Shown here piece after piece: positions 28,901 to 62,634 of a stretch of 64,000 bases of DNA. Under the pieces are notes generated by a model that had not been told where the DNA came from, did no database searches, and saw nothing but the letters and a program-made list of their open reading frames with translations. Origin of the DNA: Mycolicibacterium chubuense (lineage in GTDB: Bacteria; Actinomycetota; Actinomycetes; Mycobacteriales; Mycobacteriaceae); the NCBI RefSeq assembly GCF_001044255.1, contig NZ_JYNX01000036.1, forward strand, positions 22,338 to 86,337, written 5' to 3'. How positions within the stretch are numbered: position 1 is the first letter of the stretch; each line of letters starts with the position of its first letter. Position numbers and translations under genes: made by a program.

Positions 28901-29605
28901 GTGGCACAACATTCCCCGCCGGTGGCGGTCAAGACCGATGGGCGCAAACGCCGCTGGCATCGGCACAAGGTCGAGCGCCGGAATGAACTCGTGGACGGCA
29001 CCCTGGAGGCCATTCGCCGGCTCGGCAGCAACGTCAGCATGGATGAGATCGCCGCCGAGATCGGGGTGTCCAAGACCGTTCTGTACCGCTACTTCGTCGA
29101 CAAGAACGACCTGACCACCGCGGTGATGATGCGCTTCGCGCAGACCACGCTGATCCCCAACATGGCCGCCGCGCTGTCGTCGAACCTGGACGGTTACGCC
29201 CTGACCCGCGAGATCATCCGCGTGTACGTCGAGACGGTGGCCGCCGAGCCGGAGCCCTACCGGTTCGTGATGGCGAACAACTCCGCGAGCAAGAGCAAGG
29301 CGGTCGCCGAGTCCGAACAGATCATCGCCCGCATGCTGGCGGTGATGCTGCGCCGGCGCATGGTGTCGGTCGGCATGGACACCGGCGGCGCGGAGCCGTG
29401 GGCGTTCCACATCGTCGGTGGCGTGCAGCTGGCCACGCACTCGTGGATGTCGCATCCGCGGATGAGCGCCGACGAGCTGATCGACTACCTGACGATGCTG
29501 TCGTGGAGCGCGCTGTGCGGCATCGTCGAGGTCGGCGGTTCGCTGGAGCGGTTCAGGTCCGAAGCCCATCCTTCCCCGGAACTGCCCCCTCAGCTGCTTG
29601 ACTAG
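28901..29605 (+). CDS. madR: TetR-family regulator, MadR-like (Rv0472c-like)
   Basis: A 234-residue regulator. The helix-turn-helix is SMDEIAAEIGVSKTVLYRYF at about 46-65, and the helical ligand domain follows. Position (next to DUF445, near hbhA and ahead of a fadB2-icl1 block) matches M. tuberculosis Rv0472c, named MadR for acyl-CoA-responsive control of the mycolic acid desaturases desA1/desA2; the name is carried over on position and family. The GTG at 28901 is chosen because the frame further up has no start with better context. It overlaps nothing and is followed by a polyphosphate kinase after a 4-base gap. Confidence 0.82.
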   Translation: MAQHSPPVAVKTDGRKRRWHRHKVERRNELVDGTLEAIRRLGSNVSMDEIAAEIGVSKTVLYRYFVDKNDLTTAVMMRFAQTTLIPNMAAALSSNLDGYALTREIIRVYVETVAAEPEPYRFVMANNSASKSKAVAESEQIIARMLAVMLRRRMVSVGMDTGGAEPWAFHIVGGVQLATHSWMSHPRMSADELIDYLTMLSWSALCGIVEVGGSLERFRSEAHPSPELPPQLLD

Positions 29606-29609
29606 GTCC

Positions 29610-30476
29610 GTGAGCGAGCCCCTGGATCTACCGTCGCTGTGGTCGCATGAGCCGCACTCGCTGCTGAGGTTCACGCCGGGCGATCTGGTCGCCGACATCG
29701 ACCCCGACGCCACCCCCGGTTTCCGCGGGGTCAAGTCGGATGCCCCGACGCTGCAGGAGGAGCGCAACGTGCGCTTCGCCGAGCTGCAGGAGATGCTGTA
29801 CGCCCGCAGCCGGGTCGGCGACACCCGCTCGGTGTTGCTGGTGCTGCAGGGCATGGACACCGCGGGCAAGGGCGGCATCGTCAAACATGTTGTCGGAGGC
29901 TGCAATCCGCAGGGCGTCGACTACTTCAACTTCGGCAAGCCCACGCCCGAGGAGCTGTCGCACCACTTCCTGTGGCGGATCCGCAAGGCTCTGCCGCGGC
30001 CGGGCCACATCGGGGTGTTCGACCGTTCCCACTACGAGGACGTGCTCATCGTCCGCGTGCACAACCTGGTGCCCCCGACGGTGTGGGAGCCACGCTACGA
30101 CGAGATCAATGCGTTCGAACGCGAACTCGTCGAGAGCGGCACGAGCCTGGTGAAGGTCGCGATGTTCGTCTCCCTCGACGAGCAGAAGAAGCGACTCGCC
30201 GAGCGGCTCGAGCGGCCGGACAAGTACTGGAAGTACAACCCGGGCGACATCGACGAGCGACTGAAGTGGCCTCTCTACCAGGAGGCGTACCAGGCGATGC
30301 TGGACCGCACGAGCACCGAGTACGCGCCGTGGCACGTGGTGCCCTGCAACCGGAAGTGGTACAGCCGCCTGGCCGTGACCGAGTTGATGATCGAGGCGCT
30401 CAAGCAGCTCAACATGTCCTGGCCGCCACCGGATTTCGACGTCGAGGCTGAGAAGGAGCGGCTGAAGAAGGCCTGA
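29610..30476 (+). CDS. PPK2-family polyphosphate:nucleotide phosphotransferase
   Basis: A 288-residue kinase of the PPK2 family. Walker A is GMDTAGKGGI at about 82-91, with HVVGGCNPQGVDYF after it. The Walker B-like FDRSHYEDVLIVRVH and the lid arginine region KKRLAERLERPDKYWKYN follow. The family moves phosphate between polyphosphate and nucleotides, and this subgroup can use mono- and dinucleotides. Start GTG at 29610 follows the TetR TAG by four bases; a TTG at 29598 inside the TetR gene is less likely. A different PPK2 lies at 58234-59094, so this genome has at least two in 30 kb. Confidence 0.88.
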   Translation: MSEPLDLPSLWSHEPHSLLRFTPGDLVADIDPDATPGFRGVKSDAPTLQEERNVRFAELQEMLYARSRVGDTRSVLLVLQGMDTAGKGGIVKHVVGGCNPQGVDYFNFGKPTPEELSHHFLWRIRKALPRPGHIGVFDRSHYEDVLIVRVHNLVPPTVWEPRYDEINAFERELVESGTSLVKVAMFVSLDEQKKRLAERLERPDKYWKYNPGDIDERLKWPLYQEAYQAMLDRTSTEYAPWHVVPCNRKWYSRLAVTELMIEALKQLNMSWPPPDFDVEAEKERLKKA

Positions 30477-30485
30477 GCTTCGGCG

Positions 30486-30544
30486 CCGAGCGTGCACTTT
30501 ATGCACGCCTCACCTGGGGTTTGTGTATAACTTCTGCACGCTCG
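30486..30544. repeat. left copy of a 59-bp repeat bracketing the DUF559 gene
   Basis: The unit begins CCGAGCGTGCA, then N6, then GCACGCCTCAC, then N20, then CTGCAC, one variable base and CTCG. The copy at 31426-31484 has the same length and identical bases in all those blocks. Its own ends, CGAGCGTGCA and TGCACGCTCG, are perfect inverted repeats, and GCGTGCA-ctttA-TGCACGC forms an additional hairpin. It occupies the gap between the ppk2 stop and the DUF559 start. Confidence 0.75.
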
Positions 30545-30579
30545 CCTGATTCGTCGGAGCTCATTCCGATGATGCGGGC

Positions 30580-31500
30580 ATGCCAACCAACATCCTCTTG
30601 GCCAGCGAGGCCCTCGCGGCGGGCCAGGTGACCCGCCGGGAACTGGCCCGCGACTACACGAAGCTGTTTCAGAACGTCTACGTGCGCGGCGGGCTGAAGC
30701 TCACCGCGCAGGACAAGGCGGTGGCGGCCTGGTTGTGGTCCGGGCGATCGGCGACGGTGGCCGGCGTCAGTGCTGCAGCCCTGCTCGGGAGCCGCTTCGC
30801 TTCCGAAAGGGCTGCAGCAGAGCTCATCCGGGCTCACCGTCGGGCGCCCAAGGGCATCGCAGTGTTCACCGACACGGTCGCCGACCGGGACGTTTGCCGC
30901 ATCGGCAGCGTCGCGGTGACGAAGCCCGCACGGACGGCGTTCGACATCGGTCGCCGCCATCCCGTTGTCGCCGCCGTCCAGCACATCGACGCGCTGTTGC
31001 ATGCCACCGGCTGCCGGATCGACGACGTGCGGGCGGTAGCCGGACGCTACCCCGGCGTCCGCAGTATTCGTCGACTGATGACGGCACTGAGCCTCGCCGA
31101 TACAGGGGCCGAGTCGCCGACCGAGACGCTCACGCGCCTGTTCGTGGTCGCGGCGGGACTACCGCGCCCGGTCACGCAGATCCCGGTACAGGATGCAGAC
31201 GGGCGTGTGCGCTACCGCCTCGACATGGGCTGGCCAGACCTGCTCGTCGCCGTCGAGTACGACGGCGGACACCACTGGACCGATCCCGTGCAGCGCGCCC
31301 GAGACATCGAGCGCTGGGAGTTCCTCGCGGAGCAGGGATGGACGGTCATCCGCGTGAGCTGGACCCAGTTGCGCGACCAACCGAACACCATGGTCCGTCG
31401 CGTCGCGAAGGCCCTTGGCGTGGCACCGAGCGTGCAGGTCTCGCACGCCTCACTCGAGCGATGCGTAGAAAACCTGCACACTCGACGCGGGGGTCAGTAG
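30580..31500 (+). CDS. DUF559 endonuclease-like protein with N-terminal AbiEi-like region
   Basis: A 306-residue protein. The N-terminal part (about 1-170) resembles the winged AbiEi-type antitoxin region common to many actinobacterial DUF559 proteins. The C-terminal DUF559 domain is a Vsr/PD-(D/E)XK nuclease fold: D215 in RLDMGWPD, E226 and D228 in VAVEYDGG, H231, and later GWTVIRVSW. The acidic residues needed for metal binding are present. ATG is at 30580; upstream CATTCCGATGATGCGGGC gives a weak ribosome site. A near-identical 59-bp repeat lies before the gene and inside its last 75 bases. It is missing from the syntenic M. tuberculosis interval as I know it. Cutting activity is not established for the family. 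Confidence 0.82.
   Translation: MPTNILLASEALAAGQVTRRELARDYTKLFQNVYVRGGLKLTAQDKAVAAWLWSGRSATVAGVSAAALLGSRFASERAAAELIRAHRRAPKGIAVFTDTVADRDVCRIGSVAVTKPARTAFDIGRRHPVVAAVQHIDALLHATGCRIDDVRAVAGRYPGVRSIRRLMTALSLADTGAESPTETLTRLFVVAAGLPRPVTQIPVQDADGRVRYRLDMGWPDLLVAVEYDGGHHWTDPVQRARDIERWEFLAEQGWTVIRVSWTQLRDQPNTMVRRVAKALGVAPSVQVSHASLERCVENLHTRRGGQ
31426..31484. repeat. right copy of the 59-bp repeat, inside the end of the DUF559 gene
   Basis: It has the same length and spacing as 30486-30544, in direct orientation, and repeats CCGAGCGTGCA, GCACGCCTCAC, CTGCAC and CTCG exactly, while the spacers have drifted. The inverted ends are slightly degraded (CTGCACACTCG in place of CTGCACGCTCG). It encodes residues 283-301 of the DUF559 protein, so the repeat is under coding constraint. 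Confidence 0.75.
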
Positions 31501-32348
31501 CTGTAGAAACCCTTGCCGGTCTTCTTGCCCAGCTGGCCCGCCTCGACCATGCGCTGCAGCAGCGGCGGCGGCGCGTAGTGGGCGTCCTTGTACTCGTCGT
31601 ACATCGAATCGGCGATCAGCTTCATGGTGTCCAGGCCGATCAGGTCGGACAGCCGCAGCGGACCCATCGGGTGCGAGAGCCCCGCGACGACGGCGGTGTC
31701 GATGTCCTCGACGCTGGCCACGCCGGCCTCGGCCATCCGGATCGCCGAGAGCAGGTACGGCACCAGCAGCGCGTTCACGATGAAGCCCGACCGGTCGCCG
31801 CAGCGGACCACCTTCTTGCCCAGCGTCTCCCCGGCGAACTGCTCGACCCGTGCGATCGCCTCGTCAGACGTGACGAGCGTGTTGACCAGCTCGACCAGCG
31901 GCAGCACCGGCACCGGATTGAAGAAGTGCAGACCCAGCACCCGGCTCGGATTCTTCGTCGCCGCAGCGATTTTCATGATCGGGATGCTGGAGGTGTTCGA
32001 CGCCAGCACCGCGTCGGGGTCGGTGACGATCTCGTCGAGCTTGGCGAACACTGACGCCTTGACGGCCTCGTCCTCGACGATCGCCTCGATCACCAGCTGG
32101 CGGTCGGCCAGGTCGGCGAGGTCGCTGGTGAATGTCAGCCGGGCCTGGGTGATCTCGAACTCGTCGGCGGCCAGCTTGCCCTTGGCCTTCGCCCGCTCCA
32201 ACGACGCCGTGATGCGCGCCCTGCCCGCCTCGGCCAGCTCCGCCGACGGCTCGTAGACCACCACGGCCGCACCGGCCCTGGCGCACACCTCGGCGATGCC
32301 GCCGCCCATCTGCCCGGCGCCCACGACGCCGACTCGTTCGATGCTCAC
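31494..32348 (-). CDS. fadB2: 3-hydroxybutyryl-CoA dehydrogenase
   Basis: A 284-residue NAD-dependent 3-hydroxyacyl-CoA dehydrogenase. VGVVGAGQMGGGIAEVCA is the dinucleotide-binding loop. LGLHFFNPVPVLPLVELV carries the catalytic His, and SGFIVNALLVPYLLSAIR and KKTGKGFY end the protein. It oxidises 3-hydroxybutyryl-CoA to acetoacetyl-CoA in fatty acid degradation. The stop overlaps the DUF559 stop by 7 bases (convergent). It matches Rv0468, and lies next to icl1 as there. Confidence 0.95.
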   Translation of the reverse strand: MSIERVGVVGAGQMGGGIAEVCARAGAAVVVYEPSAELAEAGRARITASLERAKAKGKLAADEFEITQARLTFTSDLADLADRQLVIEAIVEDEAVKASVFAKLDEIVTDPDAVLASNTSSIPIMKIAAATKNPSRVLGLHFFNPVPVLPLVELVNTLVTSDEAIARVEQFAGETLGKKVVRCGDRSGFIVNALLVPYLLSAIRMAEAGVASVEDIDTAVVAGLSHPMGPLRLSDLIGLDTMKLIADSMYDEYKDAHYAPPPLLQRMVEAGQLGKKTGKGFYSY

Positions 32349-61266: not shown

Positions 61267-62634
61267 TCACCACGCCAGGTCCGCCTCGTGGTCCACCTCC
61301 GTCATGCCGAACTCCTCACCGGAGCAGTGCTCGACGGCGCCGAACGCGACGGCCCCGGGATCAGCCAGCCGGACCGGTCCCTGCGTCCACCGCCGGAGCC
61401 GGTTCACCGACCACGAGGAATGGCACGCGACGTCCGCCGTGGCCCCGTGGACGTGCACCGCGGCCACGTCGGGCGCCGAACAGCGGCGCACGAGTTCGGC
61501 GACCCCGGACACCGGCAGCGCGGGCCGACCGGTCACCGAGACGAGGAACCGGCAGCTGCGCCGGATGCGGTCCGGCACCGGGCCGACCCGGATCCGATCG
61601 TCCTGCAGGTGGGCCCGTTCGAGCAGCGCCTGAGCCTGCCGCCCGGTGAGCCAGATGCCGACGTCGTGGCCGAGGAACCCGCGCACCGCGGCGACCAAGG
61701 ATCCCAACCCGTGCGTGTCTGCGTCGAGTTCCACTGCCACGTCCGGTATCTCGTAGCGCAGTCCGTGGGTGCGGGCGGCCGGATCGGTGACCAGCCGGGC
61801 CAGCGCGAGAGCCTCGGCGTTCTTACCGGCGGCACGGTCGGGTACGTCGCGCCCGGCCCAGTCGGGACCGTTGTGCCATGCCACCGCCCGACGCGCGTGG
61901 TGCAGAACCGCCCCACACGCCACGGCGCGGTGGGCGAACTCCCAATCCTCACCGCCGTACCGGTCGAAGGATTCGTCGAAGCCACCGCTGTAGGTGAAAA
62001 GGTCACGGCTGCAACACATCACCGAACTGATCACGAAGCGGTAGGCACCGTTGTCGGCGACCGCGAGATCTTCGGTGCGCGCGTAGGCGTCGGTCAGCCA
62101 GCGCGGCTCCTCCAGCACCGCTGGCGCCGACTCACCCGCCCACCATCGCGAGAGGTCGGCCGCCGACCAGCCGGCGAGTTCGGCGTGGCGACGACGCCCG
62201 ACGACCAGCGCATCCGGAAGCATCGACGGCAGCCGCGAGATCTCGCGCAGGTAGCCGGGTTCGGGCACGGTGTCCGCGTCGAGAAAGCACAGGATCTCCG
62301 CCTCGGTGGCCGCGGCACCGAGGTTGCGCGCCGCGGCGGCACGGAAGCCGCGGTCCTCCTGCCTGACCACAGTGCACGCCAACGACGAGGCCGAGGTGTC
62401 GGGCGGCTGCCGCGATCCGTCGTCGGCGACCGCGACTTCGATGAGGTGAGCCGGATAGTCCTGGGCGTCAAGGCCTGCCAGCACACGGTTCAGATCGTCC
62501 TGCTGTTCGAAGAACGGGATGACCACCGCGACGCTCGCGAGTCTGCCGGACCTGCCGTCGAGCAGGTCCCAGTGATTGCCGGGCACGCACACCCGGCCGT
62601 CGGTCAGCGGGAACGGTCCGTTCATCGGTGCCAT
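61267..62634 (-). CDS. GT2 glycosyltransferase with C-terminal galactosyltransferase-type region
   Basis: A 455-residue protein. ASVAVVIPFFEQQDDLNRVL at about 33-52 opens the GT-A fold; LCFLDADTVPEPGYLRE is the DxD site, and GGFDESFDRYGGEDWEFAHR the acceptor motif. The last 150 residues form an extra domain of no recognised family. The ATG at 62634 lies inside the next gene; ATG 62625 is the alternative. It belongs to a second glycan cluster with a GT4 and a WcbI-like gene. Confidence 0.85.
   Translation of the reverse strand: MAPMNGPFPLTDGRVCVPGNHWDLLDGRSGRLASVAVVIPFFEQQDDLNRVLAGLDAQDYPAHLIEVAVADDGSRQPPDTSASSLACTVVRQEDRGFRAAAARNLGAAATEAEILCFLDADTVPEPGYLREISRLPSMLPDALVVGRRRHAELAGWSAADLSRWWAGESAPAVLEEPRWLTDAYARTEDLAVADNGAYRFVISSVMCCSRDLFTYSGGFDESFDRYGGEDWEFAHRAVACGAVLHHARRAVAWHNGPDWAGRDVPDRAAGKNAEALALARLVTDPAARTHGLRYEIPDVAVELDADTHGLGSLVAAVRGFLGHDVGIWLTGRQAQALLERAHLQDDRIRVGPVPDRIRRSCRFLVSVTGRPALPVSGVAELVRRCSAPDVAAVHVHGATADVACHSSWSVNRLRRWTQGPVRLADPGAVAFGAVEHCSGEEFGMTEVDHEADLAW

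Follow-up and report, generated by a model that had tools for sequence, protein, structure and literature searches.

A stretch of 64,000 nucleotides of Mycolicibacterium chubuense DNA (contig NZ_JYNX01000036.1, positions 22,338 to 86,337; hereafter the window) carries a nuclease gene of the DUF559/MTES_1575 kind that lies between two related palindromes. We hold with moderate confidence, on the strength of sequence comparisons, that palindrome, nuclease gene and palindrome together form a small mobile element, the nuclease of which recognises the palindrome, and that the palindrome also spreads on its own. The pairing of the palindromes, their co-variation with the protein, the swapping and flipping of units in place, the dispersal of single (solo) palindromes and their presence or absence at orthologous places can each be read from the DNA. 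Swaps, inversions, presence/absence and dispersed solos thus give good support to the original prediction, made from the letters of the window, of a small mobile or self-targeting unit.

The nuclease gene and its two palindromes

The left copy (30486-30544) reads CCGAGCGTGCA-6-GCACGCCTCAC-20-CTGCAC-1-CTCG, and the right copy (31426-31484) holds the same four blocks at identical spacing. This direct reading confirmed what had been described beforehand, namely two 59-bp repeats sharing four blocks, perfect 10-bp inverted ends on the left copy (CGAGCGTGCA/TGCACGCTCG), and a right copy placed inside the 3' coding end of the open reading frame. Each copy by itself is an imperfect palindrome, 58 bp from tip to tip. 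The pair was absent from the list of a general repeat finder, and local alignment controlled by shuffles and mismatched pairs was used instead; aligned in this manner, the two flanks of the gene scored 29, compared with 16 for the best of 40 shuffles. A palindrome model (R1) built without the two window palindromes recovered both (E 3.2e-6 and 8e-6) and matched nothing else in the window clearly. A weak match, the next in rank, lies at 62386-62440 (E 0.038). The core of the left copy, GAGCGTGCA-5-TGCACGC, occurred in the 5.9-Mb genome only at the two window flanks when at most one mismatch was allowed. The unit consists of a single gene between palindromes: it contains no partner toxin or methyltransferase, and no AbiEii toxin gene is adjacent to the nuclease gene within it.

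Bracketing across the nuclease family

The genome from which the window comes encodes 13 members of the family, the other 12 sharing no more than 49% identity with the window protein. A flanking pair above shuffles was found at 10 of the 13, all except L037, L038 and L040 (L and G numbers are our handles for loci and genomes), and the sequence of the pair differs from gene to gene. A wider set of 107 loci comprised these 13, four from named genomes (two Mycobacterium, one Williamsia and one Rhodococcus) and, for the rest, best matches in other genomes of the genus; it is not a random sample, and six same-place duplicates had been removed beforehand. Protein search of genome contigs found 5 loci. 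Three of the 107 were dropped for short flanks, leaving 104 loci, all but two of them mycobacterial. Each species was represented by a single genome. Upstream and downstream copies formed a pair scoring at least 22 at 86 of these 104 loci, compared with 62 of 3752 mismatched pairs without linked flanks. An earlier null (70/86 against 120/2125) was inflated by pairs of loci from the same site, and linked pairs were removed in the final one. Control flanks taken around fadB2 were positive in 2 of 25 cases; as both positives (L061 and L070) are local-type solos beyond fadB2, there was no chance positive among the other 23. At these two loci the extra local-type solo occupies the next intergenic gap, leaving fadB2 itself between two like palindromes.

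Fifty-eight of the 86 pairs are direct and 28 inverted. The end of the upstream copy lies a median of 41 bp before the start codon, a position from which it could also act as an operator, and the downstream copy starts before the stop codon in 66 of the 86.

The family is not confined to mycobacteria. The window protein was matched in all 60 genomes of its genus that were searched. Profile matches at E <=1e-20 were obtained in 56 genomes out of a class-wide sample of 79 from actinomycetes, four of the 79 belonging to the window's genus. At loci from other genera of the class a pair scoring at least 20 was present in 22 of 26 cases, compared with 30 of 650 mismatched pairs. By inspection, five loci outside mycobacteria (L216, L217, L222, L229 and L233) have tandem direct half-sites rather than inverted ones, L217 with GTTGATCATGCAGCAAGGGAC-like units twice on either side of the nuclease gene.

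Palindrome type and protein identity

A search for palindromes of 52-65 bp gave 109 that scored well, with lengths clustering at 56-58 and 62-63 bp (21 of 56 bp, 40 of 57 bp and 26 of 62-63 bp). Palindrome likeness was compared with protein identity in pairs of loci without detectable flank similarity, using flanks of at least 600 bp and counting palindromes as alike at a score of at least 18. The palindromes were alike in 1 of 720 pairs with proteins below 45% identity, 8 of 751 at 45-50%, 21 of 430 at 50-55%, 31 of 135 at 55-60%, 26 of 44 at 60-70% and 2 of 3 above 70%. Among pairs with some flank similarity and proteins less than 50% identical, they were alike in none of 84. Palindrome likeness thus tracks protein identity and is absent at linked sites with divergent proteins, from which it follows that the palindrome belongs to the gene and not to the place. 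The suggestion that the repeats are the recognition site of the protein gains indirect support from this co-variation.

Mismatches between the arms, read on the gene strand, were 64 G.T and 47 A.C upstream and 51 G.T and 69 A.C downstream. With 115 G.T against 116 A.C in total, nothing points consistently to an RNA strand, and the symmetry seems to be kept in double-stranded DNA; an RNA hairpin role as the main cause was rejected for want of an overall G.T excess. Covariation counts were not taken as proof, as the 30 palindromes concerned had been picked for symmetry. A GTAG or CGTC tag at the palindrome foot was found in 10 of 130 palindromes, compared with 19.4 expected from neighbouring DNA, and CGCCGA-like tips in 49 of the 130, being common and not the rule.

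Replacement and inversion of units in place

L088, the closest relative, has flanks 91-93% identical to those of the window, around a gene that is inverted, 65% identical in DNA and 52% in protein, and accompanied by different palindromes. In this best-resolved swap the break falls at the outer palindrome tips, homology stopping at about 30488 and restarting at about 31481. Inversions were also seen in L186/L187 (flanks 90-94%, gene 77%) and L036/L191 (flanks 92-95%, gene 65%), while L033/L188 are swapped in the same orientation and have other palindromes (flanks 92-95%, gene 63%). Simple orthology was seen in L034/L185, with genes 88% identical, and in L037/L197, with proteins 88% identical. 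Same-site locus pairs numbered 151, with 94 in the same and 57 in opposite orientation; these are non-independent, the window's site alone having 15 members. The idea that only the inner palindrome halves move on inversion was dropped, for in L186/L187 gene and entire palindrome appear to move together. Fourteen window-site genes grouped in one clade of an 84-protein tree, with the window gene outside it.

The site occupied in the window was read in 62 stretches from 57 genomes of the genus. Its neighbours, which we take from their protein sequences to be ppk2, fadB2 and umaA, are presumably metabolic genes. The ppk2 end is out of view in 33 of the 62 stretches; where it is in view, the nuclease gene is present in 13 and absent in 16. 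Fourteen of these 16 empty sites have 3-63 bp from ppk2 to a methyltransferase-like gene, L073 has 22 bp from ppk2 to fadB2, and the 106 bp of L066 contain a single palindrome (score 13.5, shuffle maximum 7); no palindrome was found at the 15 other than L066. That the site was already a palindrome before insertion was rejected, since most of the 14 gaps are too short and the longest contains none above shuffles.

The methyltransferase-like gene is missing in 11 of the 13 nuclease-bearing stretches, as if lost beside the palindrome, and also in L066 and L073, both of which lack the nuclease gene. At the ppk2-fadB2 site, L057 has a nuclease reading frame of only 165 codons, and L062 (=L096) and L077 (=L089) combine a long nuclease reading frame with a right palindrome that is missing or a stub.

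Features of the window locus
Feature	Position	Strand	Remarks
Left palindrome, 58 bp	30487..30544	none	Upstream of nuclease gene
Nuclease gene, 306 aa	30580..31500	+	Pfam MTES_1575 1.2e-9, DUF559 2.8e-6
Right palindrome, 58 bp	31427..31484	none	Within 3' end of nuclease reading frame
Left neighbour, polyphosphate-kinase-2-like gene	29598..30476	+	Convergent flank of insertion site
Right neighbour, fadB2-like gene	31494..32348	-	Convergent flank

Solo palindromes and their presence or absence

A covariance model of 30 palindromes located 25 distinct places in the window's own genome at E <0.01, three of them nuclease flanks and 22 not near any of the 13 genes; the E-values are rough, and, as 150 of 4073 candidates were scored, the 25 places are a lower bound. 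Some solos share their type with a nuclease of the same genome, L280 with L032, L292 with L033 and L282 with L039. Others (L278, L285 and L289) scored 29-39 against the flanks of L203 in genome G054, in which, among the part of the candidates that was scored, the L278/L285 type occupies at least 18 scattered places, one of them beside the L203 nuclease gene. In G131 the half-site of one nuclease locus gave 82 forward and 81 reverse matches with at most one mismatch, and the reversed pattern gave none. The G131 matches that were fetched resolved into 20 distinct palindromes, each 71-72 bp long, which share their arms and differ in their centres; two of the 20 are the flanks of a nuclease gene. 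The original prediction had counted occurrence of the repeat at many unrelated places as a point against itself. Such occurrence was found for the palindrome class and not for the sequence of the window gene's own repeat, and the dispersed class turns out to be part of the phenomenon.

Solos can be present in one genome and absent from another. L285 is absent at the orthologous place in G054, where the window's own genome is 94 bp longer, and these extra bases include a 10-bp target duplication. At the place of L276, G054 has the same type and G019 none; another palindrome, with scores of 35-36 against the L043 flanks, is found there in G037 and G027. Where G131 has about 620 bp that include two palindromes, G099 has 33 bp and G116 has 23 bp.

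A second class of palindrome, reading GCGATTTCGG...CCGAAATCGC and similar to those that flank the distant paralogue L043, stands at sites of another own-genome class, namely at the L276 site in G037 and G027 (scored) and at the L285 site in G037 and G019 (by eye).

Target duplication was tested in 19 palindromes, made up of 17 solos and the window's own two, and in 63 whole units. It was seen in 1 of the 17 solos (the 10 bp of L285) and showed no excess over mismatched controls in the units, and a general target duplication was rejected. Hairpin target sites were likewise rejected, there being no excess of outer inverted repeats (p 0.30 for G131 solos, 0.66 for own solos and 0.27 for units).

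The nuclease protein

Library and fold matching identified the window protein as an AbiEi-like DNA-binding domain joined to an EDxHD/Vsr-fold nuclease, the MTES_1575 and DUF559 Pfam domains lying in the C-terminal third of its 306 residues. AbiEi models of a defence library match the N-terminal domain, and beyond AbiEi that library gave just a 13-bit match. The C-terminal domain has the Vsr-like fold with its E, D, H and D residues, and its best match was the homing endonuclease I-Bth0305I. NCBIfam and PHROGs yielded weak matches only, and a sequence search against solved structures one chance-like match only. All four catalytic residues are intact in 99 of 103 family proteins. The paralogues L040 and L194 have changed or missing catalytic positions and no scoring pair, L194 keeping one palindrome, and L099 has lost its nuclease end and retains the flanking pair.

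Proposed mechanism and alternative explanations

If the unit is mobile, the protein would most likely bind its palindrome of about 57 bp as a dimer, with one half-site per subunit, and cut at or beside it. Repair of the cut could then allow a whole unit or a single palindrome to enter or leave small intergenic gaps, or a unit to flip or be replaced by another, and single palindromes would spread as non-autonomous copies. We infer that transposition would be driven by this nuclease rather than by another enzyme. The upstream palindrome would, in addition, probably let the protein repress its own gene. For the I-Bth0305I family, dimerisation on a target of nearly 60 bp has been described (PMC3943268).

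Several observations weigh against such an element. Both palindromes are present at the unit, so that an ordinary homing endonuclease would cleave the very locus that encodes it, and the divergence of the resident paralogues from the window protein indicates that movement is not frequent. No pair was found at 18 of the 104 loci, among them L037, L038, L040, L045, L084, L089, L096 and L106, although several of the 18 retain one palindrome; at these 18 the gene occurs without the full repeats, which the original prediction had named as evidence to the contrary, and at the other 86 it occurs with them. Six solos of the own genome (L275, L276, L277, L281, L283 and L291) are of one type without a matching resident nuclease, scoring 20-31 against the flanks of the relatives' window-site nuclease and no more than 16 against those of the resident nucleases. 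The lack of a regular target duplication, in solos and whole units alike, and the near absence of the nuclease family from plasmids and phages count on the same side.

The main rival, an autoregulator without a mobile role, is in our view unlikely. The protein would be mainly a DNA-binding regulator, with the two palindromes as operators for autoregulation, perhaps with looping across the gene, and the solos as its other binding sites. The AbiEi-like N-terminus, the short distance from upstream copy to start codon (median 41 bp), the co-variation of palindrome and protein, and arm symmetry seemingly kept at the level of double-stranded DNA (G.T 115, A.C 116) would all suit such a protein. Such a regulator would leave unexplained, however, the 66 of 86 downstream copies that start before the stop codon, the conserved nuclease residues, the in-place swaps and inversions, and the 163 half-site matches in G131.

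It could also be envisaged that the palindromes owe their movement to a different enzyme, such as a RAYT-type transposase, and that the nuclease gene is a passenger or its product a mere binder. We regard this as decidedly improbable: while the absence of a regular target duplication and the own-genome palindrome type without a matching nuclease would fit, the palindrome type goes with the nuclease protein even between unlinked sites, and at 22 of 26 loci from other genera the nuclease gene lies between a pair.

A defence nuclease acting on incoming DNA, with bracketing palindromes that mark or regulate its own locus, appears less probable still. The matches to AbiEi models of a defence library and the fast turnover at one site agree with it, in contrast to the one-gene unit without partner toxin or methyltransferase, the 13-bit match that is all the same library offers beyond AbiEi, and the many solo palindromes on the own chromosome. 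The window site lies between convergent genes, and the palindromes might accordingly be no more than bidirectional transcription terminators, with gene conversion keeping them alike. This is highly improbable, since terminators need no shared sequence and yet palindrome type follows the nuclease, the lengths cluster at two sizes, and the overall G.U bias of a transcript hairpin is not seen. A mobile unit built from the nuclease and its palindromes is the explanation that we prefer.

Comparison with known systems

The window protein shares its Pfam domains with DUF559/REase_MTES_1575 proteins, the family descriptions of which make no mention of flanking palindromes such as the window unit has. 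Unlike I-Bth0305I, the nuclease is free-standing in a chromosomal gap and fused to an AbiEi-like domain, and its presumed site is kept twice at the unit and not interrupted by the gene. Unlike AbiEi antitoxins of the type IV toxin-antitoxin system AbiE, it has a nuclease domain and palindromes on both sides, and there is no second gene in the unit. As to the regular target-site duplication of DDE-type insertion sequences and their MITEs, there was one duplication of 10 bp among 17 solos and none above control among 63 units; as to the partner methyltransferase of restriction-modification systems, the unit contains no second gene.

That the arrangement matches no described system, as first proposed, was borne out in the open-access literature, in which, mainly in titles and the openings of abstracts, no description of it was found. 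As far as this search reaches, it points to the palindrome-nuclease-palindrome unit being an undescribed kind of mobile DNA. The balance leans slightly towards a family of selfish DNA that spans the actinomycete class and is so far undescribed, in which an AbiEi-EDxHD nuclease would spread its own palindromic site as units and as REP-like solos, with many independent specificities per genome. Such a family would give context to DUF559/MTES_1575 proteins, which are widespread across actinomycetes, and explain one class of dispersed palindromes. It would also offer dozens of naturally diverged pairs of nuclease and target; the sites are long, and rules of recognition could be derived from them.

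The closest parallel is with REPtrons. These consist of a RAYT (TnpA-REP) gene bracketed by palindromes that are also dispersed singly, several types can occur in one genome, and enzyme and palindrome co-evolve (PMC3733652, PMC8266576). As in REPtrons, an enzyme gene is flanked by palindromes (86/104 loci, and outside the genus 22/26, some with direct half-sites), and the same kind of palindrome is dispersed as solos (22 of the 25 own-genome places, and G131). In contrast, however, the enzyme here is an AbiEi-EDxHD nuclease and not an HUH Y1 tyrosine transposase, the palindromes are mostly 56-72 bp long, compared with 20-40 bp given for REPs in PMC3733652, and there is no excess of GTAG/CGTC tags. 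Thus, while the unit would work like REP/RAYT, the different kind of enzyme and the absence of the tag mean that it is not a member of that system. If this is true, it would represent a second, enzymatically unrelated origin of REP-type repeats, and would suggest that REP-like repeats emerged on more than one occasion, with nucleases unrelated to each other.
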